Shown here: positions 305 to 29,666 of the stretch, piece after piece
Numbering within the stretch: position 1 is the stretch's first letter
Layout: the number at the start of each line of letters is the position of its first letter
Assembly (NCBI GenBank): GCA_027019785.1
Contig: JALUWF010000283.1
Coordinates: 1 to 38,668 of the forward strand
Origin: Mariprofundus sp.
Lineage (GTDB): Bacteria; Pseudomonadota; Zetaproteobacteria; Mariprofundales; Mariprofundaceae
Direction: 5' to 3'
DNA: 38,668 nucleotides
Notes under the pieces: generated by a model
What the model was told of the DNA's origin: nothing
Databases searched by the model: none
Seen by the model: the letters and a program-made list of their open reading frames with translations, nothing else
Program-made: the position numbers and the translations under genes

Positions 305-1158
305 AAGTGCCACTCCAATTGCAGCCTGGTACGGTAATCAGTTTTAGTTTGGGCACCGTTGAGATTGCTGAAGACAGGAAGCTGCACTCCCGCCCTGACT
401 GCAAAATTACGCACCGTCCACATAAAACCCGGAGACAAAAACAGTTCCGTGCCGCCGTCATTGACAAGAGATACGCCGTCCAGACTGCCATGCCTGCCAT
501 ATTCACCGTTCAACTCCAGTAACCATACCATATCCGGTTTGAGATATTCCGGCATGGTAGGACGCCAACCTGCAACCAGATCAACCAACACCTTGTCTCC
601 AATCTTTTTTCCGCCGCTGTGCCCGTTACGGCGATAGCGTACGCTTGCCCAACGATACCATGTGAGACTCTCATGGCCGTAGGTCAGTCCTGCAACAACA
701 TCGGTGGTGCCAGTACCAAGTGCTGGTTTTGCGGCTGTAGACGCTCCTTGTTTCGATGTATCGAACTTCACCTTCAGCAGAGCCGCCATTGAGTCCACCG
801 TACCCGGGCTATCCTCGTGCCAAAAACGATACTTGGTGAACAATCCCAAATCTCCCAAACCATTGGCCTGACCATAACTGTTTTTCTTGAATACCCACGG
901 AAATTCGCCTCCGACCGTCAAATCCGCATTGATACCATAGGCGATATTGAGCAGCCCAATATCAAGACCACGGGTGCTACCCGATTGGCTAACATCCAAT
1001 TGGGATGATACCTCTACGCCACCCTCATAAATGACATGTGGCCCCAGCCCGAAAATCGGGTCATGCGCCATGGCAACACCGGGTAATGCCACAAATAACA
1101 GCCCTGCCACCGCCATACGTGCGGATTTACCGCCTGTTGAAATTTTTCCGAGCATCAA
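301..1158 (-). CDS. Outer-membrane transporter-like protein with signal peptide
   Basis: 285 aa ORF, signal peptide then AHDPIFGLGPHVIYEGGVEVSSQLDV..., beta-strand-rich ending in ...LQLEWHL; overlaps neighbours by ATGA on both sides. Confidence 0.7.
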   Translation of the reverse strand: MMLGKISTGGKSARMAVAGLLFVALPGVAMAHDPIFGLGPHVIYEGGVEVSSQLDVSQSGSTRGLDIGLLNIAYGINADLTVGGEFPWVFKKNSYGQANGLGDLGLFTKYRFWHEDSPGTVDSMAALLKVKFDTSKQGASTAAKPALGTGTTDVVAGLTYGHESLTWYRWASVRYRRNGHSGGKKIGDKVLVDLVAGWRPTMPEYLKPDMVWLLELNGEYGRHGSLDGVSLVNDGGTELFLSPGFMWTVRNFAVRAGVQLPVFSNLNGAQTKTDYRTRLQLEWHL

Positions 1159-1574
1159 GGAACTTCCTGATCATCAGGATTATCCAGACTATCCATAATC
1201 GGGCAGGCTTTCAGCGTCCCGTTTTTAGGACACGCCTCAACCAGTGGAATTAGCGCATCTCTCATACGTTCAAGATCATGAATCTTCGTTTCAATGTCTT
1301 GCAAGTGGTTTGCAGCCATGCTGCTCACTTCAGCACAGCTTGCATTCTGCTCACCCTGCAATGCCAACAGTGCCATCACCTGTTTAAGCGTAAAGCCCAA
1401 CGCCTGCGAACGTTTGATAAAGCGAATACGCCGTACCGATGCATCATTAAATACGCGGTAGCCATTCATAGAACGGGAGGGCGCAGGTAACAGACCACGA
1501 CGCTCATAATAGAGCACAGTCTGCGCATTCACGCCCGCCTCTTTGGCGACCCAGCCAATAGTTTTTCGGGTCAT
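1155..1574 (-). CDS. MerR-family metal-responsive regulator (Hg-type MerR cysteine layout)
   Basis: N-terminal HTH (TIGWVAKEAGVNAQTVLYYERRGLLPAPSRSMNGYRVF) and Cys...CPKNGTLKAC (C-x8-C) near the C-terminus. Confidence 0.85.
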   Translation of the reverse strand: MTRKTIGWVAKEAGVNAQTVLYYERRGLLPAPSRSMNGYRVFNDASVRRIRFIKRSQALGFTLKQVMALLALQGEQNASCAEVSSMAANHLQDIETKIHDLERMRDALIPLVEACPKNGTLKACPIMDSLDNPDDQEVP

Positions 1575-1789: not shown

Positions 1790-1845
1790 GCTAAAATTCA
1801 CAGGGGTTGGGCAGGCCGGGTAAGTGTGGCTAAAATTTATTATTT

Positions 1846-1871
1846 CAATATTACTTGAATTAATGTATATT
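1846..1871 (+). promoter_or_regulatory. Candidate ArsR operator
   Basis: CAATATTACTTGAATTAATGTATATT, ending 6 nt before the arsR ATG; matches the sequence at 26112-26138 upstream of the paralogous arsR. Confidence 0.6.
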
Positions 1872-1877
1872 TAGCCA

Positions 1878-2279
1878 ATGTTGTCGGACGATCTTACAGC
1901 CAACAAGCTTGCAGCGCTCGCCCACCCGGCGCGACTTGCTGTGATCCGCCTGCTGGTGAGGGCTGGTCCGGCAGGGTTGCCGGCGGGCAAGTTGGGCGAA
2001 CAGCTACATATTGCTGCCAATGCCTTGACATTTCATCTACAGAAACTGGCTCATGCCGGACTAATTACCTCGCAACGTCAGGGGCAGTTCATTGTCTACG
2101 CCGCCGTGTTTCCTGATTTGCTTGAACTGACAAATAATCTCGTTGGAGCTTGCTGCGCCGACAGCACCGAAAAGTGCGGCCCGGCATGCCCATCAAGCGG
2201 GCGAGAAGCCGGTGACATCGGACTTGCAGATAACACTGATAACCCCGCAACAAAAGGAAAAGGAGTCCAAAATGAATGA
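1878..2279 (+). CDS. ArsR/SmtB-family repressor
   Basis: LAALAHPARLAVIRLLVRAGPAGLPAGKLGEQLHIAANALTFHLQKLAHAGLI winged-helix; C-terminal ACCADSTEKCGPACP thiolate motif. Confidence 0.9.
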   Translation: MLSDDLTANKLAALAHPARLAVIRLLVRAGPAGLPAGKLGEQLHIAANALTFHLQKLAHAGLITSQRQGQFIVYAAVFPDLLELTNNLVGACCADSTEKCGPACPSSGREAGDIGLADNTDNPATKGKGVQNE

Positions 2280-2733
2280 ATCCATATCCAAGCTTCCCAC
2301 TTCTTCATGGCTGCGCGACATCGGTGTCGGACTCGGTGTCGCCGTATTGACCGCGCTGGTCATGCTAACACTGCTGAATACTGGCATTTCGCCCTTCCCG
2401 AAGCCGCCCTCACTGGCATTTGCCGAAACACTGCTGGGGCGTACGTTGCCCATGCCCGTCGGACTGCTATTCCACACGGCGTATGTCATCTTCTGGTCGG
2501 TGGTTTTTGTGCGTTTTTTCCCGAAGCGTAACCTCAAAACGGCACTGGCGCTTGCCGGTTTTCTCTGGCTCGTGATTTTGGCGGTATTCTTCCCGATTGT
2601 GGGCTGGGGCTTCGCAGGGTTGGATGTCAGCCCCAAACTGATTCCCGCCTCCTTTATGCCGCATCTGCTGTTCGGGTTATTGCTGTGGGGATTGGATAAA
2701 TATCTGCCACACAGGTCGTCCTTGAAAGCCTGA
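2272..2733 (+). CDS. Uncharacterised ~4-TM inner-membrane protein paired with ArsR
   Basis: Begins MNESISKLPTSSWLRDIGVG; start overlaps the arsR stop; hydrophobic segments; paralog at 25286-25729. Confidence 0.8.
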   Translation: MNESISKLPTSSWLRDIGVGLGVAVLTALVMLTLLNTGISPFPKPPSLAFAETLLGRTLPMPVGLLFHTAYVIFWSVVFVRFFPKRNLKTALALAGFLWLVILAVFFPIVGWGFAGLDVSPKLIPASFMPHLLFGLLLWGLDKYLPHRSSLKA

Positions 2734-5482: not shown

Positions 5483-5599
5483 AACATCTTCGTTCAAGGA
5501 TTTGCCGTGTATTTTTTATCACGGTAATTGTTTCGTATGCCCTAGGCTTTTTCAAAGCTCTTTTCACAAATGGATGATGTTATTAAATCGGAGGTTTCA

Positions 5600-6922
5600 A
5601 TGGGTCATTTGCCCCACGTTATAAGGTGGCTGCCGTTAGGGTTTGCCACTATTTTACTCACATTTTCATGGAGCATGGCGCAAGCTGATGAAGATGCTTT
5701 ATTTAATCATGCCAAACAGATTACCCCCGCACAACTTGTAGACGCCGTGCTGATTCGCAATCCCGGCCTGAGCGGCATGCGCTCGGCCGTCGAAGCGGCA
5801 CGCGCGAAAATTGATCCCGCCGGTGCACTGACCGACCCGTTGCTGGCCTACGGGCTGGCGCCGGAAACCATCGGCGGATTCAGAACGCCCGGCGGCAGGC
5901 ATCGCGGTCTGAGTCAGCGCATAGAACTGTCGCAAACGATTCCCTGGCCGGGCACCCTGGAACTGCGCGGCAAGAAGGCTGCCGCAGAAAGCGAATCGGA
6001 AGCCTGGAAGCTCTCCGACTTTCGCCTGCAACTGGCCGAACGGACGCGCGCCGCCTATGCCCAATGGTATTACGTGCATCGCGCACTCGCGGTTAACGCC
6101 GAAAATCGTGTTTTGCTGGTACGCCTGCGCGGCGTCGCCGAAACTGCGTATGGTGCAGGTCAGGCGCCGCAGCAGGACGTATTGCAAGCGGAAGTGGAAC
6201 TGACCCGTTTGCAGAATCAGGCATTGGAAATAGAACGCCGCCGCGCCACGGTGCAGGCCGGAATCAATGGCTTACTCAATCGCAATCCACAGGCACCTTT
6301 ACCGATACCGAAGGCATTGCCTCCGGCCGGTAACCTTCCCGACTACGCGAATCTACAGCAGATGGCGCTGGCCCGATATCCGGTGCTCAAACGGCTGGAT
6401 GCGGAGATTAACGCTGGTCAGGATCGGGTCGAACTGGCGCACAAGGGCTTTTATCCCGATTTCAAACTATCGGCAGGCTATAACAACCTGTGGGACGCGC
6501 CGGAAAAACAATTCACCGTTGGCGCTACGATCAACATCCCTATCGGCGCTAAACATCAAGGTGAATTGGAGGCGGCCAATGCACGCTTGCAGCAACATCG
6601 CGACGAACGGCTGGATGCACGGGCAAGCCTGCTCAGTTCACTCGATCAGTCCTATAGGACGGCACGACAGGTCAGAGACAGCATCGCGCTCTACGCCGAC
6701 CGCCTGCTGCCTCTGGCGCGCTTAAACATGAAGGCTGCCGAGGCCGATTACAGCGGCGGTAGTGGAGATTTTTTGAAGTTGATCACCGCCGAACAGCAAT
6801 ATTTGATAGCCAAGCTGGAACTGTCGCGTTCGCGTGCCGATTTCTTCATCCAGTTCGCCGCACTCGATTACCGCACCGGCGGCGCGCTGACTACTAACCA
6901 GACACAGGAGACAAACCCATGA
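5600..6922 (+). CDS. cusC-like: Outer-membrane efflux protein, TolC/CusC-like
   Basis: SD GGAGGTTTCA-ATG; OEP repeats (...LQAEVELTRLQNQALEIERRR...); first gene of the RND operon. Confidence 0.85.
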   Translation: MGHLPHVIRWLPLGFATILLTFSWSMAQADEDALFNHAKQITPAQLVDAVLIRNPGLSGMRSAVEAARAKIDPAGALTDPLLAYGLAPETIGGFRTPGGRHRGLSQRIELSQTIPWPGTLELRGKKAAAESESEAWKLSDFRLQLAERTRAAYAQWYYVHRALAVNAENRVLLVRLRGVAETAYGAGQAPQQDVLQAEVELTRLQNQALEIERRRATVQAGINGLLNRNPQAPLPIPKALPPAGNLPDYANLQQMALARYPVLKRLDAEINAGQDRVELAHKGFYPDFKLSAGYNNLWDAPEKQFTVGATINIPIGAKHQGELEAANARLQQHRDERLDARASLLSSLDQSYRTARQVRDSIALYADRLLPLARLNMKAAEADYSGGSGDFLKLITAEQQYLIAKLELSRSRADFFIQFAALDYRTGGALTTNQTQETNP

Positions 6923-8307
6923 ATAAATCCGGATGGATTGTTATCGCCGTTATCATCGTATTGCTCGCGTCGGCCACCGGGTATTTTGCCGGCAAGCACG
7001 GCAACACTTTGAATAGCACAGGCAGGACGCCTGCTTCCGGCACCACTACGGAAGATCGCAAGGTACTGTACTGGAAAGCGCCGATGGACCCCAATTTCCA
7101 CAGCGACAAGCCCGGTAAGTCACCGATGGGCATGGATTTGGTGCCGGTTTACGCCAACGACAGAGGTGCAGCCAGTGACGTAAAAATCGATCCGGCGGTA
7201 GTCAACAATCTCGGCGTGCGCACGGTCGAGGTTCAACAGGGCTCCCTCTCGCATCGCATTGAGGCCGTAGGCTATGTTGGCTACGATGAAAATACCGTTA
7301 CCAGCATTAACACGCGCGCTGAGGGGTGGGTGGAAAAGCTGGGGGTTAAAAGTGTTGGTGACACCGTACGCCCCGGCCAACTGCTTTATTCACTGTTCTC
7401 CCCCAGGCTGGCGACGGCTGAGCGTGAATACCTGACAGCGACGGCCAGCGGTAGCAAAACCTTAATCCGAGCCTCGCGCCAACGCATGCGCGCCCTGGGT
7501 TTTACCACGATCCAGATTGAACGTCTCAAACACAGACGTAAGGTGAGCGATCGTGTGGCGCGGCGCGCCGAAGGCGCAGGCGTCGCGATCAATCTTGGTA
7601 TCAGTGAAGGTGCTTACGTCAAACCGATGACCCGGGTCATGCGGTTGGCGGATTTACATACGGTATGGATTCTGGTTGAAATAGACGAAAGCGATGTAGC
7701 ACTGTTGCGTACTGGTCAGAAAGCGGTCGCCACCTTTGACGCATTTCCGGGACAGCGCTGGTCAGGTGCCGTGGACTATATTTATCCGGACATCAATACG
7801 GCAACACGTACGGCCAAACTGAGGTTGCATTTCAATAATCCAAAGCTGCGTCTGCAACCCAATATGTATGCGCACATTTCCATTGATGCCATGCCTCAGC
7901 ATCATGTTGTCCATATTCCATTGCAGGCGCTGATCCGCACCGGCCATAGTCAGCGTGTTGTTGTCTCGCTGGGTAACGGACGTTTCGATATTTGTCCCGT
8001 TGAAGCCGGGTTTACTTCAGGGCGTCAGGTGGAAATTTCAAAAGGCCTGCGGGTCGGCGAGCGCGTGGTGATCTCAGCGCAGTTCATGCTCGATTCCGAA
8101 GCAAACGTCGATGCGACTTCGCTGCGTCTGGGTTCCGGAAAAGCAGCCTGCACGGCTGTGGCGGCGATGCCGGGGCGGAGCAAAGCTATGTCCGGTATGA
8201 GGATGCCAGTTCACGACATGGGAGGCGGCATGGAAGGCAAAGGCAGCTCCGGTCAGAGCATGTCCGGTCCCATGCAATCCGGCGATAGTGAAGGAAAACA
8301 GCCATGA
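6919..8307 (+). CDS. cusB: Periplasmic adaptor (membrane fusion) protein, CusB-like
   Basis: YWKAPMDPNFHSDKPGKSPMGMDLVPVY heavy-metal-binding domain; MFP core; Met-rich tail MSGMRMPVHDMGGGMEGKG. Confidence 0.9.
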   Translation: MNKSGWIVIAVIIVLLASATGYFAGKHGNTLNSTGRTPASGTTTEDRKVLYWKAPMDPNFHSDKPGKSPMGMDLVPVYANDRGAASDVKIDPAVVNNLGVRTVEVQQGSLSHRIEAVGYVGYDENTVTSINTRAEGWVEKLGVKSVGDTVRPGQLLYSLFSPRLATAEREYLTATASGSKTLIRASRQRMRALGFTTIQIERLKHRRKVSDRVARRAEGAGVAINLGISEGAYVKPMTRVMRLADLHTVWILVEIDESDVALLRTGQKAVATFDAFPGQRWSGAVDYIYPDINTATRTAKLRLHFNNPKLRLQPNMYAHISIDAMPQHHVVHIPLQALIRTGHSQRVVVSLGNGRFDICPVEAGFTSGRQVEISKGLRVGERVVISAQFMLDSEANVDATSLRLGSGKAACTAVAAMPGRSKAMSGMRMPVHDMGGGMEGKGSSGQSMSGPMQSGDSEGKQP

Positions 8308-11300
8308 TTGCCGCCGTCATTCGCTGGTCGCTGAACAACCGCGCCTTTGTGCTGCTGGCGCTGGCCTTTGTTGTGGTCGGCGGCTTGTACACGCTACAGC
8401 AGACGCCGGTGGACGCTATTCCCGATCTGTCCGACGTGCAGGTCATCGTCAAGACATCATATCCCGGTCAGGCGCCGCAGGTGGTTCAGGATCAGGTCAC
8501 CTATCCGCTGGAGACGGCCATGCTGGCTGTGCCGGGTGCCACCGTGGTGCGCGGCTATTCGTTCTTCGGGGACTCCTATGTCTACATCATCTTCAAGGAC
8601 GGCACCGATTTGTACTGGGCGCGTTCGCGGGTGCTGGAATACCTCAATCAGGTCGCCGGCAGTTTGCCTGCGGCTGCCCACCCGAGCCTGGGCCCGGATG
8701 CCACAGGCGTCGGCTGGGTGTACGAATACGCACTGGTGGACAAGACCGGCCAACACGATCTGGCGCAGTTGACCAGCCTGCAGGACTGGTTTTTGAAATA
8801 CCAGTTGCAAACAGTGCCGGGGGTGGCCGAAGTGGCCACTGCGGGCGGCATGGTGCGCCAGTACCAGGTAGTGGTAGACCCGGACAAGCTGCGCGCTTAC
8901 GGCATCACCTTGAGCCGTGTGAAGACTGCTATTCAAAACGCCAATCACGAGACTGGTGGCGCGGTGGTGGAACTGGCGGAAGCTGAATACATGGTGCGTG
9001 CCAGCGGCTATATCCAGAGCATTAAGGGTCTGTTGCAGGTGCCGCTGATGACCGATAAAAACGGCACGCCGGTGCAACTCAAGGACGTAGCCGAAGTGCG
9101 CCGGGGGCCGCAGATTCGCCGTGGTATTACCGAACTCAATGGTCAGGGTGAAGTCGTGGGCGGCGTCATCGTGATGCGCTACGGTGAGAATGCGCAAAAG
9201 GTTATCGACGGGGTCAAGGCCAAACTCGCTTCGTTGAAAGGCAGTCTTCCGCCCGGTGTTGAAATCGTGCCCACTTACGATCGCTCCGAACTGATCGGCA
9301 ATGCGATCAGCAATCTGCGCGAAAAGCTGTTCGAGGAGTTTCTGGTGGTAGCGCTGATCTGCGGCGTATTTCTGTTTCACTTCCGTTCGGCGCTGGTAGC
9401 CATCGTCAGTCTGCCCATCGGCATTCTGATCGCGTTTATCGTCATGCACGTCCAAGGGCTCAACGCCAACATCATGTCGCTGGGCGGCATCGCCATCGCT
9501 ATCGGCGCGATGGTGGACGGAGCCATCGTCATGATAGAAAATCTGCACAAACACATTGAGCGCGGCGATGACAGCAAAGAGCATTGGCACCGCGTGGCGA
9601 CGGCCACCACCGAGGTCGGCCCGCCACTATTTTTCTCACTGCTCATCATCACTCTCAGCGTGGTTCCGATCCTTAGCCTGACCGGTCAGGCCGGACGCAT
9701 GTTTTCGCCGTTGGCCTACACCTGGATCTATTCCATGGCTGCGGCCGCCATTCTGGCCGTGACTCTGATTCCGGTGCTGATGGGCTATTTCATCCGTGGC
9801 AAAATCACGCCAGAGCAGCGTAATCCGATCAACCACCTGCTCACGACAATTTACAGACCTGTTATCAACCGGGTGGTGGGCCATCCCCGGCTGGTGGTGA
9901 TCTTTGGCATTCTGATGATTTTCATCGGCCTGTGGCCAGCCTCGCGCCTGGGTTCGGAGTTCATGCCGCCGCTGGATGAGGGCGATTATATGTACATGCC
10001 GTCGGCCCGCCCCGGCATTTCCGCAGGCAAAGCGTTACAGGCATTGCAGCAGACCGACAAGCTGATTATGAGCGTGCCGGAAGTGGCCTCCGTGTTTGGT
10101 AAAATGGGCCGCGCGCAAACCGCCACCGATCCGGCACCGTTGCCGATGGATGAGGCCATCATCCAGTTCAAACCCGAATCAGAATGGCGACCCGGCGTCA
10201 CCCGTGCCGACATCTACAAAGAATTACAGCAGCGGGTGCATCTGCCGGGGCTGACCAACGCCTGGGTGATGCCGATCAAGACCCGCATCGATATGCTATC
10301 CACCGGCATCAAGACGCCGGTAGGGATCAAGGTCGGCGGGCCGGACTTGAAAGTGATCCAGAAGATCGGTAAAAAGCTGGAGAAACTGCTGCCGCAGGTC
10401 AGGGGCACCACCTCAGTGTATGCCGAGCGCGTGGCCGGCGGTCGCTACATCAGGATCGATATTGATCGCAACAAGGCGGCCCGCCTCGGGCTCAATATCA
10501 GCGATGTGCAGGATGTGGTGCGCACCGCCATCGGCGGCATGAACGTCACCGAAACCGTGGAAGGGCTGGAGCGTTACCCGGTCAATCTTCGTTACCCGCG
10601 CGACTGGCGTAATTCGGTAGCAGCATTGCGCCAGTTGCCTGTCGTCACCGCCCGTGGCGGTCATATCACGCTGGGCGATGTCGCCCGCGTCTACATTGCA
10701 GACGGGCCGCCGATGATCAAGAGCGAGGCCGGACAACTCACGGGTTGGACTTACGTGGACATTGCCGACCGCGACGTCGGCTCCTATGTGGTTGAAGCTC
10801 AGAAGGTGGTCGCGGAGCAGATCAAGCTGCCGGTCGGCTATTCGCTGACATGGTCGGGGCAGTACGAATATATCCGCAAAGCCAGGCAGAGTCTGATGCT
10901 GATTATCCCGGTTACCGTCGTTCTCATCGCGTTGCTACTGTATATGGCGTTTCGCAGTATCCCGCAGACCCTGATCATCATGGGTGCCCTGCCGATGGCG
11001 CTAACCGGCAGTTTCTGGCTGCTGTACCTGCTCGGCTATAACCTGTCGGTGGCGGTGGCGGTTGGCTTTATCGCACTGGCAGGCGTCACCACCGAGATCG
11101 GCGTAGTATTGGTGGTCTATCTCAATATGTCGGTGGGTTTGTACCTCGAAAAATGCAAATCGGAGGGTAGGTCTTTAAGTTATGAAGGCGTGCGCGACGC
11201 CGTGCGAGACGGGGCGCTGCTGCGTCTGCGCCCAATCTCCATGACCGCCGCCGCCATCATCGCCGGGCTACTGCCGGTCATGCTCGGCGGCGGCACAGGT

Positions 11301-11429
11301 TCGGAGGTGATGCGTCGCATCGCCGCGCCGATGGTCGGCGGCATGATTAGCGCACTGGTGCTGACCATGCTCGTGATTCCCGCAGCGTATCTACTGTGGG
11401 AATGGCGGCATCTGCGCAAACGCGGCTGA
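8304..11429 (+). CDS. cusA: HME-RND copper/silver efflux permease, CusA-like
   Basis: 1041 aa; AAVIRWSLNNRAFVLLALAFVVVGGLYTLQQTPVDAIPDLSDVQVIVKTSYPGQAPQVVQDQVTYPLETAML, typical of CusA/HME-RND. Confidence 0.95.
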   Translation: MIAAVIRWSLNNRAFVLLALAFVVVGGLYTLQQTPVDAIPDLSDVQVIVKTSYPGQAPQVVQDQVTYPLETAMLAVPGATVVRGYSFFGDSYVYIIFKDGTDLYWARSRVLEYLNQVAGSLPAAAHPSLGPDATGVGWVYEYALVDKTGQHDLAQLTSLQDWFLKYQLQTVPGVAEVATAGGMVRQYQVVVDPDKLRAYGITLSRVKTAIQNANHETGGAVVELAEAEYMVRASGYIQSIKGLLQVPLMTDKNGTPVQLKDVAEVRRGPQIRRGITELNGQGEVVGGVIVMRYGENAQKVIDGVKAKLASLKGSLPPGVEIVPTYDRSELIGNAISNLREKLFEEFLVVALICGVFLFHFRSALVAIVSLPIGILIAFIVMHVQGLNANIMSLGGIAIAIGAMVDGAIVMIENLHKHIERGDDSKEHWHRVATATTEVGPPLFFSLLIITLSVVPILSLTGQAGRMFSPLAYTWIYSMAAAAILAVTLIPVLMGYFIRGKITPEQRNPINHLLTTIYRPVINRVVGHPRLVVIFGILMIFIGLWPASRLGSEFMPPLDEGDYMYMPSARPGISAGKALQALQQTDKLIMSVPEVASVFGKMGRAQTATDPAPLPMDEAIIQFKPESEWRPGVTRADIYKELQQRVHLPGLTNAWVMPIKTRIDMLSTGIKTPVGIKVGGPDLKVIQKIGKKLEKLLPQVRGTTSVYAERVAGGRYIRIDIDRNKAARLGLNISDVQDVVRTAIGGMNVTETVEGLERYPVNLRYPRDWRNSVAALRQLPVVTARGGHITLGDVARVYIADGPPMIKSEAGQLTGWTYVDIADRDVGSYVVEAQKVVAEQIKLPVGYSLTWSGQYEYIRKARQSLMLIIPVTVVLIALLLYMAFRSIPQTLIIMGALPMALTGSFWLLYLLGYNLSVAVAVGFIALAGVTTEIGVVLVVYLNMSVGLYLEKCKSEGRSLSYEGVRDAVRDGALLRLRPISMTAAAIIAGLLPVMLGGGTGSEVMRRIAAPMVGGMISALVLTMLVIPAAYLLWEWRHLRKRG

Positions 11430-13276: not shown

Positions 13277-16200
13277 CTACTCAGCACCCTTTGGATGATG
13301 GTCTCTGGCAATAAACATATACATCGCCGGTACGACAAACAAGGTGAACAGCGTGCCGATGGACAGGCCGGTAAAGATCACCAGCCCCATCGAATAGCGA
13401 CCGGCGGCTCCCGCGCCGCTGGCCAGCACCAGCGGCAGTACGCCGAGCACCATCGCAGCTGTGGTCATCAGAATCGGACGCAGACGCACACCGGATGCTT
13501 CTATAATTGCATCGAGTTTGCTCTTGCCTGACAGTTGCAATTCATTGGCAAACTGCACCATTAGAATACCGTGTTTACTGATCAGCCCCATCAGTGTCAC
13601 CATCCCCACCTGGGTGTAGATATTGATGGTGGCCAGCCCCAGATTGATAAACAGTAATGCTCCCAACAGTGCCATCGGCACCGATACCAGAATCACCAGC
13701 GGATCACGGAAGCTGTTGAACTGGATGGAGAGCGCCAGAAAGACAATCACAATGGCCAGCAGCATCATATATACAAAACCGCCGGACTCCTGCACGAACT
13801 GGCGCGTCTGACCTGCATAATCGACAGAATAGCCGCTGGGGGCGATGTCGTTCAATGTCCTGGTCATAAAATCCAGTACCTGCTGTTGCGACAAACCACC
13901 GGCATAGACGCCGGATATCTTGGCAGAATTCAGTTGCTGGAAGCGGTTGATCGATTCGGGCACCACTTGATGCGTCAGCGTTGCTACGGTGGAGGCCGGA
14001 ATCATCGAACCATCGGCGGCGCGGATATAATAATCCAACACCTGATCAGGATTCAGCCGCATAGCCTGCTCAACCTGCGGCATGACCCGGTAGGAACGAC
14101 CATCGATAGAAAAATAGTTCACATAACCGCCACCCAGCGCTGCGCCGAGCGATGCGCCCACCTGCTGTTCGGTGAGCCCCAGATCGGCGACCAGATCACG
14201 ATCCATCTTGAGCGTACTTTGCGGTTTATCGATTTTCAGATCGCTGTCAATAAAAAAGAACATACCGCTGGCCTGCGCCCTGGCCAATACCTCACCGGCA
14301 ACGCGGTTGAGTTTATCGAAGCCTTCGGTCGTTTTGATGACAAACTGTAACGGCAAGCCGCCGGAACCGGGCAGTGATGGAAACTGGAAAGCAGCCACAC
14401 GCGCACCGGCAATATGATTCCATTTCTGTTGCAACACCTTTTGCAATTCACTGGCGCTACGCTGGCGATCTTCCCATGGTTTAAACAGCACGCCGCCGAT
14501 GCCCTGACTGGTGGTCGGGATGCCCGTCAGCTGGAACATCTGATCGTATTCCGGCAGTTCTTTGGCCATCCGGAACATCTGATCGGCGTAAATATTCATC
14601 TGTTGGGCTGTAGCATTGGGCGCGCCGACAATCTGGCCAGCCACCAGTCCCTGATCTTCCTGTGGTGCCAGTTCAGCCTTGGATGTAGCAAACAGATAGA
14701 CGACCAGACACAGCAGCAAGCCGCCCATCACCACCATCACCGGCCAGGTCTGTAAGGTACCACTTAAACGTCGCTGGTAAGCTGCATGCAGGCGGGAGAA
14801 CTGATGATCAATGGTTGCCACCAGCCGGTTATCCTGTTGCTTGGGGGTGAACATTTTCGAAGTCATCATCGGCGACAGGGTTAGCGCTACAATCGCCGAA
14901 ATGGTCACAGCCCCCGCCAGCGTGAAGGCGAATTCGGTGAACAACGCGCCGGTTAAGCCGCCCTGAAAGCCAATTGGCACATAGGCGGCAATCAGCACCA
15001 CCGTCATAGCGATAATCGGCCCACCCAGTTCGCGCGCCGCCAAAAGCGCCGCCTCAAACGGCGATTTACCCTCGTGGTGCATGTGCCGATCCACATTTTC
15101 CACCACGATAATCGCATCATCCACCACCAGACCAATCGCCAGCACCAGCGCCAACAGGGTCAACAGATTGATGGTATAGCCCAGTGCCATCATCACGAAG
15201 AACGCTCCGACCAATGATAACGGGATGGCCACCAGGGGTACAATCACCGCGCGCCAGCTGCCCAGAAAAATAAACACCACCAGCGTAACAATCAGCAATG
15301 CTTCGCTGAGCGTTTTCAGCACTTCATCAATCGAGCTGCGGATGAATTTGGTGCCGTCATAAACAATCTTGCCACTTAAACCATTCGGCATCTGCGCCTG
15401 AATGGCCGGGAAATGATCGCGCACACGCTGAATCACATCCAGCACATTGGCTTCCGGCGCTACCTTGATACCGATAAACACCGACTTCTCACCGTCAAAG
15501 GCTGTGGTCTGATTGTAATCTTCCGCCCCCAGCACCACATTGGCGACATCATCCAGGCGTACCACCGCACCACCCTGCTCGCGGATGACCAATGCCTTGA
15601 ATTCATCAATCGAGTGCAGATCGGTGGCGGCATTGAGTTCCACGCTGACCATCTGCCCCTTGGTACTGCCCAGCGCCGACAGGTAATTATTCGCAGCCAT
15701 AGCGGCATAGACATCGCTGGCCGTGACCCCGTGCGCTGCCATGCGATCCGGATCGAGCCAGGCGCGCAGCGCAAACTGGCGCGAGCCGATAATTTCAGCC
15801 CGCTGCACCCCTTCAATGCCGTCCAGCTGCGGCTTGACCACACGCAGCAGGTAATCGGTGACATTGTTATTCGGCAACAGTTTGCTGGAAAACCCCATAT
15901 ACATCGCATCGACTGTCTTGCCTACCTGCACAGTCAGTACCGGTCGCTGCGCCTCGGGCGGCAAGCGATTGAGTACGGCACTGACCTTGGAACTGATATC
16001 GGTCAGCGCACGATTGGAATCATAATTCAGGCGTAGCGTGGCCATGATTGTCGAAGCATTGCTGACGCTGGTTGAAGAGAGATAGTCAATGCCTTCAGCC
16101 TGTGCAATGGCCGTTTCCAACGGCTGGGTGATAAAACCGGCTACAGTTTTGGCATCAGCGCCATAATAGACGGTACTGATCGTCACCACGGCATTCTGCG

Positions 16201-16321
16201 TTTCCGGATACTGACGGATCGGCATATTGATAATCGCCTGCAAGCCGAGCACCAGAATCAATAAGCTGATCGTTGTAGCCAGCACCGGCCGGCGAATGAA
16301 AATATCGGTATAATGCTTCAC
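13277..16321 (-). CDS. HAE-type RND multidrug efflux permease
   Basis: 1014 aa; FIRRPVLATTISLLILVLGLQAI..LPIRQYPETQNAVVTISTVYYGADAKTVAGFITQPLE; AcrB/MexF family. Confidence 0.95.
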   Translation of the reverse strand: MKHYTDIFIRRPVLATTISLLILVLGLQAIINMPIRQYPETQNAVVTISTVYYGADAKTVAGFITQPLETAIAQAEGIDYLSSTSVSNASTIMATLRLNYDSNRALTDISSKVSAVLNRLPPEAQRPVLTVQVGKTVDAMYMGFSSKLLPNNNVTDYLLRVVKPQLDGIEGVQRAEIIGSRQFALRAWLDPDRMAAHGVTASDVYAAMAANNYLSALGSTKGQMVSVELNAATDLHSIDEFKALVIREQGGAVVRLDDVANVVLGAEDYNQTTAFDGEKSVFIGIKVAPEANVLDVIQRVRDHFPAIQAQMPNGLSGKIVYDGTKFIRSSIDEVLKTLSEALLIVTLVVFIFLGSWRAVIVPLVAIPLSLVGAFFVMMALGYTINLLTLLALVLAIGLVVDDAIIVVENVDRHMHHEGKSPFEAALLAARELGGPIIAMTVVLIAAYVPIGFQGGLTGALFTEFAFTLAGAVTISAIVALTLSPMMTSKMFTPKQQDNRLVATIDHQFSRLHAAYQRRLSGTLQTWPVMVVMGGLLLCLVVYLFATSKAELAPQEDQGLVAGQIVGAPNATAQQMNIYADQMFRMAKELPEYDQMFQLTGIPTTSQGIGGVLFKPWEDRQRSASELQKVLQQKWNHIAGARVAAFQFPSLPGSGGLPLQFVIKTTEGFDKLNRVAGEVLARAQASGMFFFIDSDLKIDKPQSTLKMDRDLVADLGLTEQQVGASLGAALGGGYVNYFSIDGRSYRVMPQVEQAMRLNPDQVLDYYIRAADGSMIPASTVATLTHQVVPESINRFQQLNSAKISGVYAGGLSQQQVLDFMTRTLNDIAPSGYSVDYAGQTRQFVQESGGFVYMMLLAIVIVFLALSIQFNSFRDPLVILVSVPMALLGALLFINLGLATINIYTQVGMVTLMGLISKHGILMVQFANELQLSGKSKLDAIIEASGVRLRPILMTTAAMVLGVLPLVLASGAGAAGRYSMGLVIFTGLSIGTLFTLFVVPAMYMFIARDHHPKGAE

Positions 16322-16325
16322 GCGC

Positions 16326-17480
16326 TCACTGCTCCTGCGGGGTTGGGGCTATGTCATTGGCTGGCTGAATTTTGTTATCAATCAACAACGGCGTGCCATT
16401 CTTCAGCTTCATCAAACCGCTGGTCACAATCATATCGCCATCGTTGATGCCGGAGAGAATAGCCACCTGATCACCGCGGGTGGCACCTAGCTTGACGAAT
16501 TCCTGCTGCGCCACCAATCCCGGCCTGGCTTTTTTGCTGTTCTTGTCTCTCGTCGCCACAAACAAGGTTGCCCCATAGGCGTTATAGCTGACAGCGGTTT
16601 GCGGCAGGGTAAGATAGTGTTGCACCTTGCCACTAACCACGGATAAGGTGACAAACATGCCGGGGGCTAACTGGCCCTCCGTATTGGCGGTTTTATCAAC
16701 ACGACCTTCTATGCGCACATTGCGCGTCGCGCTATCCACGGCTGCATTGATAGCCGTAATCTCGCCGTCAAACACGCGACCCGGCCATGCATCACTGTGG
16801 ATATGCAGTAGCTGCCCGACAGATATACCACCGAGTTCCTTCTGTGGAAGATGAAAATCAACAAACAGCGATTCGGTATTCTCCAGACTGGTAATCACAT
16901 CACCCGGATTGATGTATGCACCGGGATTGATCGATACAATCCCCAAACGACCTGCAAACGGAGCAGTGATAAATTTCCTGGCAATCAGAGCACGCTGCTG
17001 CTGAACTGCGGCAACGGCGCGCTTGAGCCCGGCTGCACTGACATCAAAGGCTGCCCGGCTGATAGCTCTGGCCTTTAACTGCGCCTTGTCACGGGTGAAA
17101 CGGAGCTCGGCCAGTTTGGCATCGGCTGCCAGCGCACGCAGCTGCGCATCGGCATCGGCATGATAGAGTTCCAGTAACAGCACGCCTTTTTTCACCTGTT
17201 GCCCGGATTGTATATACACACGACCAACCTTACCGGCCACTTCGCTGCTGATATTTACACCCTGCAGCGCCCGCAAACTGCCGATAGCATGCAGCGTCGG
17301 CTGCCAGTTCTGATAGCTCACCCGCATCGCCGTGACCGTAGCCGGCGGTCGCGTATTGGAAGCCAGGTATTTTTGCATCATATAGACACCGAACATGCGG
17401 TAGCCGTACAAGCTGCCAAACAGCAGCCCCACGCCGATGAGCATCCAGATCATGCGTTGACGCATTTTACTCTTGTCCAT
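16326..17480 (-). CDS. RND periplasmic adaptor subunit
   Basis: Membrane anchor, lipoyl/barrel-sandwich motif, ITAPFAGRLGIVSINPGAYINPGDVI. Confidence 0.92.
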   Translation of the reverse strand: MDKSKMRQRMIWMLIGVGLLFGSLYGYRMFGVYMMQKYLASNTRPPATVTAMRVSYQNWQPTLHAIGSLRALQGVNISSEVAGKVGRVYIQSGQQVKKGVLLLELYHADADAQLRALAADAKLAELRFTRDKAQLKARAISRAAFDVSAAGLKRAVAAVQQQRALIARKFITAPFAGRLGIVSINPGAYINPGDVITSLENTESLFVDFHLPQKELGGISVGQLLHIHSDAWPGRVFDGEITAINAAVDSATRNVRIEGRVDKTANTEGQLAPGMFVTLSVVSGKVQHYLTLPQTAVSYNAYGATLFVATRDKNSKKARPGLVAQQEFVKLGATRGDQVAILSGINDGDMIVTSGLMKLKNGTPLLIDNKIQPANDIAPTPQEQ

Positions 17481-19092
17481 GATTCATCTCCGGTTGGGTG
17501 ATACCTGACCACGCCTTGAAAAAATCCGCATTACCGGCTACCGGGCGATAGGCATCGGCGCGTTGCCACCAGCCTCCGCCCATGGCCTGAAACAGCGCGG
17601 CACTGTCGGCCAGCAGCGTTGCCCGCGCCTGCACCACGCCGATATGACTCTGGCGGTACTGCTGCTGGGCATTGAGCAGGGTCAGAAAACTGACCGCACC
17701 CAGATTAAATTGATGATGCACCAGATCCTGCGTCTGCCGGGCCAGCAATTCGGCTTTCAGTTGTAATTTGAGGCCGCGCGCATCGTTTTGCAGTGCCAGA
17801 AATACATCGGCGACATCGCGAAAGGCCAGCAATACCGTCTGTTGATATTGCGCCCGCGCTGCATCAAAACTGGCCAACGCCTGCCTGCGTTTGGCGCTCA
17901 GTTCGCCACCATGAAATAGCGGCTGCAACACATTGCTGCCGATACTCCAGATGCCGCTGGCAGGCCCGCTCAGCAGATCGCCGAACTGTACCCCCTGCCT
18001 GCCGAATCCGGCCGTGATCTTGAGCGACGGATACATATTGGCCGTCGCCAGCCCGATTAACGCGCTGGCCTGATGCAGTTGCGCTTCTGCCGCGCGAATA
18101 TCCGGTCGCTGATGCACCAACTCGGATGGCAGGCTCACGGGCAAGGATTCCGGCAGATGAAGCCCGGCCAGTTCAAATGCAGGCATGCCCGGTTTCGCAT
18201 CCCTGTTATTCTGGTGAGCAGATTGGGCATGGTGGGTTCCCGCACGTTCACCGGGAAAACGCCCAACCAGCACCGATAACTGATGCTGCGCCTGCGCCAG
18301 TTGTTTCTCCAGCGGCGGCAATGCCGCTTCCGCCTGTGCCAGAGCAGTGCGTTGACTCAATACATCGGCCTCGGTCACCACGCCGATTTCCGACTGCCTC
18401 TCGACAATCTTCAACTGCGCGCGCCGGTTTTTCACAATATCGCTGGCCGCCTGCCATTGGCCACGCAACGAAGCTTCGGAAATCGCCGTGGTCACAATAT
18501 TGGCAGCCAGCGTCAGATTGGCCGCCTCCATCTGAAAACCCTGATAATCCACCTGCGCCCGCAGCGATTCCAGATAACGCCGCCCGCTGCCGAACGGATC
18601 GAATGCATACGACACACTCACCGAGGCGGTATGCAGGGAATAAATAAAATCGCCGCTCTGCCCGAATGAGGCACCGGCCAACTTCTGGCGGTCAGAACGG
18701 ATGCTGGCATCGACGGTCGGATACAGGATCGTGCCGCTCTGCGAGGCATAATCCTCTTGCGCTGCCCGCAAGGTGGCTCTGGCCGCTGCCAGCGTCGGAC
18801 TCTGCCGCATACCCTGCTGAATCAGTTCATTCAGTTCTTTGGAGCCATACACCCGCCACCACTGTTCGGGGACATGCTCACCCTGTTTCAGTTCAGGCCC
18901 GTCGGCGGTTCGATCTCCTAATGGATTTTCTGATGTATTCTCTAATGCGCTACTGTACTGCTCCACCTTCGGCGCAGCGGGTGGTTTAAAATCCGGCCCG
19001 AGGGCGCAGCCACCCACAAGCATGCCGACCAGTGCCCCGGAGGCAATAGATTTAATACGTTTGGATTGAATTCGTTTCGATGTGATTCCCAT
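17467..19092 (-). CDS. Efflux outer-membrane lipoprotein, NodT/OprM family
   Basis: Lipobox LVGGCALGPDFKPP; OEP repeats; SLPSELVHQRPDIRAAEAQLHQASALIGLATANMYPSLKITAGFG. Confidence 0.92.
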   Translation of the reverse strand: MGITSKRIQSKRIKSIASGALVGMLVGGCALGPDFKPPAAPKVEQYSSALENTSENPLGDRTADGPELKQGEHVPEQWWRVYGSKELNELIQQGMRQSPTLAAARATLRAAQEDYASQSGTILYPTVDASIRSDRQKLAGASFGQSGDFIYSLHTASVSVSYAFDPFGSGRRYLESLRAQVDYQGFQMEAANLTLAANIVTTAISEASLRGQWQAASDIVKNRRAQLKIVERQSEIGVVTEADVLSQRTALAQAEAALPPLEKQLAQAQHQLSVLVGRFPGERAGTHHAQSAHQNNRDAKPGMPAFELAGLHLPESLPVSLPSELVHQRPDIRAAEAQLHQASALIGLATANMYPSLKITAGFGRQGVQFGDLLSGPASGIWSIGSNVLQPLFHGGELSAKRRQALASFDAARAQYQQTVLLAFRDVADVFLALQNDARGLKLQLKAELLARQTQDLVHHQFNLGAVSFLTLLNAQQQYRQSHIGVVQARATLLADSAALFQAMGGGWWQRADAYRPVAGNADFFKAWSGITQPEMNHGQE

Positions 19093-24361: not shown

Positions 24362-24820
24362 TCATTGTCTTGTCCGGGTTCATGGTTGTCTCCGAGGTCA
24401 GCGCAAATGGTATGTTGGCTGCCTCATGATGGTGTCGGATGACGGCAAACGTTTCAGTGTCCCAGCCACGCCGTTCTGAATGGATGGTTTCATCCGCGCG
24501 GCAACAGTACTTTCGAAATCGTCTTTCGTCCTCGTCCCGGTCAGGACATGGTATTCCCGTTACCTCCTGCGGCCAGTCCATGACACATCGTCGGATTGGT
24601 AACTGCGTGGCGTCAGACCAGATAGGCGCCAACCGATGATGATTTGGAAAACTTTTCCGTACCATCCATAGCCGAGACGAACGCTAGCGCCGTTAACTGA
24701 CCGACGCCGGGCATGGTTTGCAACAGCTCACACCGCTCATCTGTACTAGCCAGGCGTTTGGCCTCATTTTCCAGGCAGCCGACAGTTCTGAATAAAAGCC
24801 AGTATCAGGATAGACTCGCC
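24362..24820 (-). pseudogene. Decayed IS110-family transposase C-terminal region
   Basis: Reverse: CLENEAKRLASTDERCELLQTMPGVGQLTALAFVSAMDGTEKFSKSSSVGAYLV* followed in another frame by TPRSYQSDDVSWTGR: Transposase_20-type block with a frameshift. The extent left of ~24590 is uncertain. Confidence 0.7.
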
Positions 24821-25137
24821 CTTGGCGCAAACAAAATGATCCCGGCACCGAACAGGCATATTGCTGCTCCCAGTATGTCCCATTGATCTGGCAACTTGCC
24901 TTCTGCCAGCCAGAGCCAGATAAGTGAACTGATAATATAGATGCCGCCGTATGCGGCATAAGCCCGCCCCGCATAGTCCGCATCAACCTGCGTCAACAAC
25001 AGGGCGAATAATGCCAGACTCGCTATGCCTGGAAGTAACCACCAAGCATCACGTTCCAGCCTCAACCATGCCCAGAAGGTAAAACAACCTGCGATTTCGA
25101 AAATTGCGGCTCCCATATAAACTGCCACTGTCATCAT
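24805..25137 (-). CDS. ynfA: YnfA/UPF0060 family small membrane protein
   Basis: [80 protein letters not shown]. Confidence 0.93.
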
Positions 25138-25285
25138 AGGTTCTTTTTCCAAGCTTATGCCTCCTTTCCGTAAACCGCTAACGGTAATGTATCCACCAGC
25201 ACAAAGTCCTGCTGGTCGAGTTGCCATGATAGCAGTGTTTTGGCATCAATGGTTGTCATATAAGCGACTCGCCATGATCGGGAGT

Positions 25286-25729
25286 TTACGGGGTACTTCG
25301 AATCAATTTATTCAGTGCCCAGAGAAACAGACCGAACAACAAATGTGGCATAAAAGATGCAGGGATCAGCTTGGCACTGACGGATAATCCCGCAAAGCCC
25401 CAACCGACAATGGGAAAGAATACTGCCAGAACAATGAGCCACAACCCAAGTGCCAGTAGTAATGCGGTTTTGATATTGCGTCGAGAAAAGAAGCAAACAT
25501 AGACCACCGACCAAAAAGTGACATAAGCGGTGTGAAAAACAAGCCCTACAGGTAGCGGTAACGTACGATGCAGCAAGGTTTCCGCAAAGGCCAACCCCAA
25601 GGGTTTTGGCAACGGGGAGATACCGCTCTTCATCAAGGGCACCATAATCAATGCCGTCAGAAGGGATACGCCTATGCCAATTCCTATAGCCCGAAGCCAA
25701 GAACTGGCGCACTTTCTGGATTCTATCAT
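25286..25729 (-). CDS. Uncharacterised ~4-TM membrane protein, paralog of 2272-2733
   Basis: MIESRKCASSWLRAIGIGIGVSLLTALIMVPLMKSGISPLPKPLGLAFAETLLHRTLPLPVGLVFHTAYVTFWSVVYV...; SD AAAGGAGT inside the arsR 3' end. Confidence 0.85.
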   Translation of the reverse strand: MIESRKCASSWLRAIGIGIGVSLLTALIMVPLMKSGISPLPKPLGLAFAETLLHRTLPLPVGLVFHTAYVTFWSVVYVCFFSRRNIKTALLLALGLWLIVLAVFFPIVGWGFAGLSVSAKLIPASFMPHLLFGLFLWALNKLIRSTP

Positions 25730-25730
25730 G

Positions 25731-26105
25731 TTAAACTCCTTTTGAGTGATCATCTTTGGTTATGAGGTTGTCAGCAGCGCCATCTTTCGACGGGCATTTT
25801 GGCCCACACTTGTTCGGGGAGTCTGCGCAACAAGCGCCCACAAGGTTATCCGTGAGTTCCAGCAAATCGGAAAATACAGCCGAATAGATAATGAATTGGC
25901 CTTTCCGTCGCGAAGTGACCAATCCAACATGAACAAGCTTTTGGAGATGGAATGTCAAAGCATTGGGAGCGGCATTCACTTGTTTGCCCAGTTGGCCTGC
26001 AGCAAGACCCGCCGGACCAACGCGAACGAGGAAGCGTATGATGGACAGCCGTATCGGATGCCCGAGTACCGCAAGCTTTTTGGCAACAAGGTCGTCTGTA
26101 ATCAT
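25731..26105 (-). CDS. ArsR/SmtB-family repressor, paralog of 1878-2279
   Basis: MITDDLVAKKLAVLGHPIRLSIIRFLVRVGPAGLAAGQLGKQVNAAPNALTFHLQKLVHVGLVTSRRKGQFIIYSAVFSDLLELTDNLVGACCADSPNKCGPKCP. Confidence 0.9.
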   Translation of the reverse strand: MITDDLVAKKLAVLGHPIRLSIIRFLVRVGPAGLAAGQLGKQVNAAPNALTFHLQKLVHVGLVTSRRKGQFIIYSAVFSDLLELTDNLVGACCADSPNKCGPKCPSKDGAADNLITKDDHSKGV

Positions 26106-26111
26106 GCGGGT

Positions 26112-26138
26112 AATATTACAATGATTCATGTAATATTG
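26112..26138 (-). promoter_or_regulatory. Candidate ArsR operator (second copy)
   Basis: Reverse strand CAATATTACATGAATCATTGTAATATT, 6 nt before the ATG; includes a direct repeat GTAATATT(A/G)CAAT at 20-bp spacing. Confidence 0.6.
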
Positions 26139-26145
26139 CAATATG

Positions 26146-26586
26146 CTATCTGTGGTCGCTTCTTTTCTCTTCTCGACTGAAGTCAATCAGGCAGCAGCGA
26201 CCCGATGGGTTTCTGGATTCACAGGCGCATAGTTTGTCTTTCGTCTGCTTTACCACAAAGGCTTTCATGGCTTGTGCCGTGCCATCAGTCAGGGCGGCAC
26301 GGTATACTGATTCGGAAATATCGAAGCAGTGACAGAGCATGGCTTGCTGACCGGACTGAAATGCCCGCAAGCGGGTTTTGGAAATGCTACAGGATTCTGA
26401 AAAATAACCGACATTACATTCAGAGTTAGCACAAAATGCGTAACCTCCTTCATCTATAGCTTGGTTTTCCGGAAACAGAACCTGATGCAAGATGGTTTGC
26501 CTGCTGACTGGAAAACAGTTCTGCCCGCATGCCGGACAGCTCATTCGAGTCTTTTTCGTAGTCGTGTTACAGCAAGCACAAGACAT
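26146..26586 (-). CDS. CopZ N-terminal-like zinc/[2Fe-2S]-binding protein
   Basis: MSCACCNTTTKKTRMSCPACGQNCFPVSRQTILHQV...CANSECNVGYF...LCHCFDISE...KDKLCACESRNPSGRCCLID (Bfd-like [2Fe-2S] motif). Confidence 0.8.
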   Translation of the reverse strand: MSCACCNTTTKKTRMSCPACGQNCFPVSRQTILHQVLFPENQAIDEGGYAFCANSECNVGYFSESCSISKTRLRAFQSGQQAMLCHCFDISESVYRAALTDGTAQAMKAFVVKQTKDKLCACESRNPSGRCCLIDFSREEKRSDHR

Positions 26587-26599
26587 GGTTGCTCCTTCT

Positions 26600-28281
<1,682 letters not shown>

Positions 28282-28330
28282 TCTTTATCTCCCAACCCTG
28301 CAAGGCTGGAACCCGACAGGAAAATCTTGA

Positions 28331-28422
28331 ACCACAGAGGGCACAGAGAGCACAGAGGAGGTCAAAATCTATATGCTTTGTTTTCTCTGCTTTTCCTCTG
28401 TGCTCTCTGTGTACTCTGTGGT
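28331..28422. repeat. Imperfect inverted repeat from CACAGAG units
   Basis: ACCACAGAGGGCACAGAGAGCACAGAGGA ... TCCTCTGTGCTCTCTGTGTACTCTGTGGT, 29-nt arms, between merF and the small ORF. Confidence 0.85.
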
Positions 28423-28485
28423 GAAAATATTTTGATTTTATGATTTTCATTCTTGTATATTGTGCGCGGAATTTTTCGTAAGCGA

Positions 28486-28599
28486 CTAATGACAAGACGG
28501 GCAATGTGTCACCAGCCAGATGATGCCGGACACTGCTGCAATGCCGATCATGACGTTCAACACAACTGAGCTGCTACTCTTCTTTTCGGGTTCGCTCAC
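28486..28599 (-). CDS. 37-aa single-TM peptide ending CPSCH, in the mer operon
   Basis: GTG start overlapping merP TGA (GTGA): (M/V)SEPEKKSSSSVVLNVMIGIAAVSGIIWLVTHCPSCH*. Not in the supplied ORF track because it is short. Confidence 0.65.
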   Translation of the reverse strand: MSEPEKKSSSSVVLNVMIGIAAVSGIIWLVTHCPSCH

Positions 28600-28892
28600 T
28601 GTTTTGTTCCTGTAATGGTTGCCGGATACCCTAATTTTGTAATGGCCTGAGCAATCGCTTGAGGCGACTGTTCGCTATCTTCAAACGTAACGGTCGCCAA
28701 CGCTGTATCGAGATCAACAGCAGCAGAGTGGACGCCTTTCATCTGCAAGGCGCGATGGCGAACACTGATTGGACAGGTACCACAGGTCATGCCAGAAACA
28801 TGCATTCTGACAGTTTTCTCCTGTGCAAAACCAGTTTGCGCGTAGGCTACAGTCATGCAGAGACAGCCAGTCATCAATAACATTTTTCGCAT
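28596..28892 (-). CDS. merP: Periplasmic mercury-binding protein MerP
   Basis: Signal peptide; VRMHVSGMTCGTCPISVRHRALQMKGV. Confidence 0.93.
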   Translation of the reverse strand: MRKMLLMTGCLCMTVAYAQTGFAQEKTVRMHVSGMTCGTCPISVRHRALQMKGVHSAAVDLDTALATVTFEDSEQSPQAIAQAITKLGYPATITGTKQ

Positions 28893-28904: not shown

Positions 28905-29240
28905 TTATTTAATCAGATAGGGTAACAGTGATGGTGAAATCAGCAGCAGAATTGCAACGCCGCCCAGCATCCAGAGCAACACAGGTTTCTTCGGCGGACA
29001 ACCATTGGCCATGCACACTTTTCTGCCCTGCCAGTGCCTCCAGCCAGCCCAGCCAATCAGGCCAAGCGTGATAGCGGCGAAAATGGGGCGATACGGCTCC
29101 ATGGCGATAAAGGCTGAAGCTGAACCCAATCCCAGCATCACCACAATCAATGGCCCGATACAGCAGGCGGAGGCCAGGCCTCCAGCTATAATTGCACCCA
29201 CCAATGGCGTGTTTTCTTTTTTTGTTTCGGTATTGTTCAA
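28905..29240 (-). CDS. merT: Mercury transporter MerT
   Basis: GAIIAGGLASACCIGPLIVVMLGLGSASAFIAMEPYRPIFAAITLGLIGWAGWRHW. Confidence 0.94.
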   Translation of the reverse strand: MNNTETKKENTPLVGAIIAGGLASACCIGPLIVVMLGLGSASAFIAMEPYRPIFAAITLGLIGWAGWRHWQGRKVCMANGCPPKKPVLLWMLGGVAILLLISPSLLPYLIK

Positions 29241-29241
29241 G

Positions 29242-29628
29242 TTACTCCTCCAACGATTTCAAAATAGGACATGGGTCAGTATCGGACGACTCTTCACACT
29301 GCTCGGCTAAACTCAGTAAAATTTGACGCATCTGGGATAGTTTACGAATCCGCACCTCGATCTCATTGGCTTTGGCTTCGGCAACAGCCCGCACTTCAGC
29401 GCAATTGCAGTCATCAGTACGAAGGGCAAGCAGCTGGCCTGTTTCCTCCAGCGTAAAACCCAGTTCCTTGGTCTGCACAATAAACTTCAACCGCGACACA
29501 TCTTCTGCTGAATACTGACGATAACCGGACGCCGTACGCCTGGCCTCAGGAATTAGACCCCGCTGTTCATAATAACGAATGGTATCAATGGATACGCCGC
29601 TCTGTTTTGATAACTCGCCAATCTTCAT
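29242..29628 (-). CDS. merR: MerR, Hg(II)-responsive regulator
   Basis: MKIGELSKQSGVSIDTIRYYEQRGLIPEARRTASGYRQY; CNCAEV and QCEESSDTDPCP cysteines (C-x8-C); first gene of the mer operon. Confidence 0.93.
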   Translation of the reverse strand: MKIGELSKQSGVSIDTIRYYEQRGLIPEARRTASGYRQYSAEDVSRLKFIVQTKELGFTLEETGQLLALRTDDCNCAEVRAVAEAKANEIEVRIRKLSQMRQILLSLAEQCEESSDTDPCPILKSLEE

Positions 29629-29635
29629 GGGCGAA

Positions 29636-29666
29636 TGATAAAGCATGGAGTATACTCAAGGGTCAA
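29636..29666 (-). promoter_or_regulatory. MerR-type promoter/operator (19-bp spacer) of the mer operon
   Basis: Reverse strand TTGACC-CTTGAGTATACTCCATGCT-TTATCA with dyad GAGTATACTC. Confidence 0.8.

Follow-up and report, generated by a model that had tools for sequence, protein, structure and literature searches.

Two copies of a small module, in which a gene for an ArsR regulator is followed by a gene for a short protein with four transmembrane helices (the 4-TM protein), occur in the window, the whole stretch of 38,668 nucleotides of Mariprofundus sp. DNA analyzed here (Table 1). This arsR/4-TM module is real, conserved, and apparently undescribed, and it is a variant of metal resistance operons, not a new kind of system. 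From its sequence features, we lean toward the reading that each pair forms a self-contained, inducible accessory unit for resistance to thiophilic metal(loid)s, with the 4-TM protein as a probable, so far overlooked component of mercury/arsenic-type defense. The mer and ars operons belong to the most thoroughly studied bacterial resistance systems; to these, a conserved membrane family that is coupled to regulators and absent from the searched protein libraries would bring a further component with a distinct chemistry (histidine and no cysteine). Also, Boyd and Barkay (2012, PMC3466566) stated that proteobacterial mer operons lack ArsR, and arsR-4TM pairs beside mer genes run counter to that statement. 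The operator, the regulator swap, and the culturable Halomonas homologs described below make the module directly testable.

Table 1. Features of the window that belong to, or lie next to, the two arsR/4-TM pairs
Feature	Coordinates	Strand	Product or sequence	Supporting match
merR-like regulator gene, divergent from copy 1	1155..1574	-		best NCBIfam match TIGR02051 (MerR), 135 bits, below cutoff of 150.85
Putative ArsR operator, copy 1	1843..1861	+	TTTCAATATTACTTGAATT, 35 nt 5' of arsR ATG	25.0 bits
arsR, copy 1	1878..2279	+	133 aa, tail CCADSTEKCGPAC	PF12840, 3.5e-12; NF033788, 57.8 bits (cutoff, 55)
4-TM gene, copy 1	2272..2733	+	153 aa	
ynfA (UPF0060)	24805..25173	-		PF02694, 2.8e-29; NF002586, 132.5 bits
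Rhodanese remnant, directly after 4-TM copy 2	25155..25259	-	34 codons, stops before catalytic-Cys region	
4-TM gene, copy 2	25286..25729	-	147 aa	
arsR, copy 2	25731..26105	-	124 aa, tail CCADSPNKCGPKC	PF12840, 3.1e-10
Putative ArsR operator, copy 2	26123..26141	-	TTGCAATATTACATGAATC	21.0 bits
copZ-like gene	26146..26586	-	CopZ-N-like iron-sulfur metallochaperone	NF047645, 123.9 bits (cutoff, 100)
merA	26600..28045	-	mercury(II) reductase	TIGR02053, 557 bits; NF010311, 820 bits
merF	28051..28278	-		tblastn with L019 MerF, 55% identity, E 7e-24
merP-like gene	28596..28892	-	heavy-metal-associated domain	PF00403, 2.9e-14
merT	28905..29240	-		PF02411, 2.9e-14
merR, heading the mer run	29242..29646	-		best match TIGR02051, 131.3 bits, below cutoff

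A reading made from the sequence alone had described the pair as present twice in opposite orientation, with genes that adjoin or overlap and are homologous along their whole length, and the gene structure agrees on each point. The copies occupy positions 1878-2733 of the forward strand and 25286-26105 of the reverse strand. The two genes of copy 1 share an 8-nt overlap (ATGAATGA), those of copy 2 are separated by a 1-nt gap, and in both copies the Shine-Dalgarno sequence of the 4-TM gene is inside the 3' end of arsR. Identity is 64% over 130 amino acids between the ArsR proteins (E 2e-60) and 73% over 138 amino acids between the 4-TM proteins (E 5e-67).

The word "duplicated" in that reading stands for two homologous copies but not for a duplication event. 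In the tree the window copies are not paired, although forced pairing is not rejected (AU p 0.16), so that an old duplication and two separate acquisitions would both fit the tree and the AU test. A recent duplication of the pair was considered and is unsupported by this tree. The 4-TM gene is missing from 22 other genomes within the genus, so acquisition of the pairs is probable; such an absence is what one would expect if a resistance trait had been acquired.

Both copies lie where the sequence-only reading had placed them, one divergent from a merR gene and the other behind a mer operon. Copy 2 ends a same-strand run, merR-merT-merP-merF-merA-copZ-like, whose merF was too short for the initial list of open reading frames, and it is followed by the rhodanese remnant and ynfA. 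The single strand and close spacing of copy 2 and the mer run are as in loci L017-L019, L031, and L045 of the survey described below; this arrangement could fit one transcription unit with the mer genes, but copy 2 has its own putative operator. A tblastn search with a linked Halomonas rhodanese matched the remnant at 56% over 32 amino acids (E 4e-8). The order arsR, 4-TM, rhodanese, ynfA is intact in L012, and because of this shared order, copy 2 probably descended from an L012-like arrangement by loss of the rhodanese. No rhodanese was found near copy 1. On a wider scale, two RND-type efflux systems (positions 5570-11429 and 13277-19092), one of them CusABC-like with a heavy-metal-binding domain, flank this region, which gives the window the look of a metal resistance island. 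Two minor features were also observed. Between merP and merF (positions 28290-28480), a translation HREHRG...CALCALCG resembles a common interspersed repeat, and short inverted repeats are present. By eye, tandem MerR-type promoters (TTGACY, 19-bp spacer, TTAGAN) on the reverse strand at 1700-1800 face the merR-like gene next to copy 1.

Both window regulators belong to the ArsR/SmtB group, as evidenced by matches above the PF12840 cutoff; for NF033788, copy 2 scores 52.9 bits, just under the cutoff that copy 1 exceeds. A tail of the form CC-x6-C-x2-3-C is found in all 21 bacterial ArsR proteins linked to 4-TM genes. The closest solved relative of the ArsR is AfArsR (PDB 6j05, E 3.7e-17 with copy 1), in which three cysteines arranged as CC-x5-C (fragment NCCHGTRDCA) form the As(III) site (PMC11212059). 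The linked ArsR proteins resemble AfArsR in having a vicinal cysteine pair and a third cysteine at the same place near the C terminus. They depart from the AfArsR-type site, however, in their CC-x6-C spacing and in a fourth cysteine, and the window arsR genes are paired with a 4-TM gene and not with known ars genes. Because the spacing is x6 and not the x5 of AfArsR, the inducer is not readable from the tail.

Putative operators provide a second line of evidence for regulation. Many loci have an operator-like sequence, TTTCAATATTrCwTGAAwt, in common upstream of arsR. When a matrix built from seven distinct sites, all of them in arsR upstream regions of other species and none in the window, was run over the 38.7 kb, the two window arsR promoters ranked first and second (25.0 and 21.0 bits), and the third match was the reverse strand of the copy 2 palindrome; the best score in 20 random windows was 19.2. 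The copy 2 site is inside a perfect AATATTAC-N10-GTAATATT dyad. A genome-wide search with a pooled operator pattern, for which the window sites had been among the input sequences, found no site within one mismatch other than these two. Five arsR upstream regions (L007/L021, L028, L030, and L032) contain no operator-like site; possibly, the arsR start or the promoter is elsewhere in these loci. In MerR-linked loci, the ArsR operator is replaced by a promoter of the MerR type, positioned 5' of the 4-TM gene or of a small gene preceding it; its spacer is 19 bp long, and it contains a dyad around TTGAACYTCAAGTTACTTGAAG (TTCAAGTTACTTGAA). The use of two unrelated regulator types on the 4-TM gene argues for metal or thiol stress as its signal.

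For the membrane protein, the earlier impression that it belongs to no characterized family was confirmed. Neither copy has a match above threshold in Pfam, NCBIfam, or PDB sequences or in PADLOC, and searches with the MerT, MerC, MerF, and MerE profiles (Pfam and NCBIfam) and with PF01758 and related profiles, which cover the ArsB/ACR3 arsenite exporters, gave no match. An AlphaFold2 model built with 37 natural sequences (pLDDT 91, pTM 0.83) has four transmembrane helices and a short helix at residues 46-55, and a Foldseek comparison with PDB folds gave no meaningful match (best E 2.2). Among the 37 members, H68 in TM2 and H131 in TM4 are invariant, as are W99, P108, W112, and W139; E52 is kept in 36, and the family has no conserved cysteine. 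The N terminus, loop 2, and the C terminus are enriched in lysine and arginine, and by the positive-inside rule both termini are predicted to be inside and the two histidines to lie in the outer portion of the membrane. No relative was found in viral contigs, and a plasmid tblastn search returned a single close match, from Nitratireductor. In the literature searched, no description of the arsR/4-TM gene pair was found.

The 4-TM protein is a distant, subthreshold relative of DUF6789 (PF20587), a family with no known function to our knowledge. The window proteins show no DUF6789 match up to E 1, below the Pfam gathering cutoff, and weak matches occur in only 9 of the 37 subfamily members (best, 1.8e-5). 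Profile-profile comparison nevertheless aligned the two over their full length (139 columns, probability 96.3, E 1.7e-9), while a reversed-profile control gave a probability of 0.9. The relatives share their length, their four transmembrane helices, and, in core DUF6789 members, histidines in TM2 and TM4, although the window proteins fail to reach the family. In the literature searched, DUF6789 was found named only in one paper, on nematode G protein-coupled receptors.

On plasmids of haloarchaea, the neighbors of true DUF6789 genes include HxlR, DoxX, Rdx, and SBF. An HxlR regulator gene, DoxX, DUF6789, and Rdx lie in a row in L098:3987-7083, L100:3987-5802, and L005:3440-7978, with an SBF gene in two of the three; DoxX is missing from L005, which has an ArsR gene and merA next door. 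Among enterobacterial plasmids, those of the Klebsiella IncR and Salmonella IncC types (L096:5004-8288 and L097:5004-8288) have DUF6789 adjoining bufferin-type genes, its partners being DUF2282, MNIO, DUF2063, DoxX, and a TVP38/FAD oxidoreductase. A survey of bufferins makes no mention of DUF6789 (PMC12452194). While a true DUF6789 gene thus lies beside a bufferin (MNIO/DUF2282/DoxX) locus on IncC/IncR plasmids, no bufferin-type gene was seen adjoining the 4-TM subfamily. The DUF6789 neighbors support a function in redox stress or in stress from thiol-reactive metals yet blur the substrate; because these relatives adjoin HxlR/DoxX/Rdx or bufferin-type genes, a redox or copper role would also fit the 4-TM protein.

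A survey of one genome per species, scanned with the 4-TM alignment alone as the query, yielded 43 4-TM loci in Alpha- and Gammaproteobacteria. Locus genes were called with a codon-trained caller and clustered; ArsR-rhodanese fusions occur among the clustered proteins, and a stricter coverage rule separates ArsR from rhodanese. The linkage counts are lower bounds because the caller overlooks copy 2 of the window and certain small genes. In 19 of 41 loci, the gene at position -1 encodes ArsR, and none of the remaining positions between -7 and +7 does so in any locus. After reduction for divergence (24 groups at 85% identity, with one edge-cut row left out), arsR is immediately upstream on the same strand in 8 groups, and a divergent MerR-type gene is present, directly or one gene away, in 10, which brings the groups with either arrangement to 18. 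Neither regulator is in the tested position in the remaining six, which include L009, a locus with neither regulator anywhere in it. Two of the six are in metal settings: L045, where the 4-TM gene starts 37 bp after merA, and L036, where it is beside MerR and SBF genes. Within ~6 kb, mer structural genes are found in 13 of 42 loci and SBF/ACR3-like genes in 12. The conserved regulator linkage and the mer co-occurrence beyond the window that were anticipated from the sequence alone are thus both borne out.

Several of these settings are consistent with the idea that the 4-TM protein specifically takes up or handles Hg(II) or organomercurials and so joins MerT, MerC, MerF, MerE, and MerH as a sixth type of Mer transporter. 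Copy 2 is at the end of a mer run, the 4-TM gene of L045 is just behind merA, the order merT-(merP)-merF-merA-arsR-4TM recurs in Halomonas L017-L019 and L031, and merB is present in L039 and L041. Like MerT, MerC, MerF, and MerE, the 4-TM proteins are short and predicted to be in the inner membrane. Known Mer transporters have cysteine pairs, however, and since the 4-TM family has no conserved cysteine, the cysteine-pair relay of MerT, MerC, and MerF is not used; moreover, 29 of the 42 loci have no mer structural gene within ~6 kb. We therefore consider this identity unlikely. ACR3/SBF carriers that occur next to ArsR, frequently encoded two genes on in the Halomonas loci, are different proteins from the 4-TM protein, and the linked SBF carriers score 32.8 bits against an ACR3 cutoff of 282.8.

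Other neighbors point to sulfur chemistry. A rhodanese gene is within ~6 kb in 15 of 42 loci and directly downstream of the 4-TM gene in 13, Trx and CcdA genes come next in L030/L032, and MsrPQ genes accompany L004/L014/L041. With the haloarchaeal DUF6789 genes that lie beside an HxlR regulator gene, DoxX, Rdx, and SBF, these partners raise the possibility, which we rate as modest, that the 4-TM protein works in the homeostasis of thiols, sulfane sulfur, or redox state (dealing with persulfide, thiosulfate, or oxidized-thiol damage). Metals would then induce it only by striking thiols, and rhodanese, Rdx, Trx/CcdA, DoxX, and MsrPQ would be its real partners. Set against this are the multicysteine, metal-type sites of the direct regulators, the frequency of mer genes near 4-TM loci, and the state of the window itself, where the rhodanese of copy 2 is broken beside an intact 4-TM gene and copy 1 has none that was found.

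The patchy distribution, along with L009 (the nearest relative of copy 1), L042, and L050, which have no regulator or metal genes nearby, would also suit a passenger of metal islands with no role in resistance. Neutral hitchhiking, though, predicts neither an operator, a tail motif, and a gene order kept across classes nor a second regulator family on the same gene elsewhere, and we regard this explanation as very improbable.

We thus return to a metal(loid) resistance accessory unit. Starting from regulation and linkage, which the sequences support, we infer its inducer, topology, substrate, transport or handling step, direction, and phenotype. Without metal, the operator in the arsR promoter would be occupied by an ArsR dimer. 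A thiophile such as As(III)/Sb(III) or Hg(II) would bind the cysteine-rich tail and release ArsR, leading to joint translation of arsR and the 4-TM gene. The 4-TM protein would insert into the inner membrane with both termini inside, and H68 and H131, together with E52 and W112, may form a site near the periplasmic face that transports or handles the metal(loid) or its thiol/sulfur adduct. Where they are present, MerA/MerT-type proteins, rhodanese, or an SBF/ACR3-like carrier would act beside it. The proposal of an undescribed thiophilic-metal module accordingly keeps its footing in the missing family match, the ArsR/MerR linkage, and the mer co-occurrence, whereas its transport function and substrate are conjectural. 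More speculatively, the 4-TM proteins could represent a class of cysteine-free, histidine-paired small membrane proteins that handle thiophilic metal(loid)-sulfur species under ArsR/MerR control in Proteobacteria and are related to a haloarchaeal DUF6789 unit with like partners (a small thiol protein and an SBF carrier).

The surveyed loci contain further small genes of note. In most MerR-linked alphaproteobacterial loci, the start of the 4-TM gene is overlapped by a gene for a protein of 120 to 140 amino acids that has an invariant CC and a tail rich in cysteine (L004:7532-7909; also L014, L022, L033, L036, and L038); the one such protein tested had no Pfam or NCBIfam match. For the ~125-amino-acid product encoded before the 4-TM gene in MerR loci, the predicted fold (pLDDT 72) had no significant PDB match. 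Finally, a Rhodovibrio locus with no ArsR or MerR gene (L050:3406-5081) contains two diverged, tandem 4-TM genes with a CBS-like open reading frame between them.
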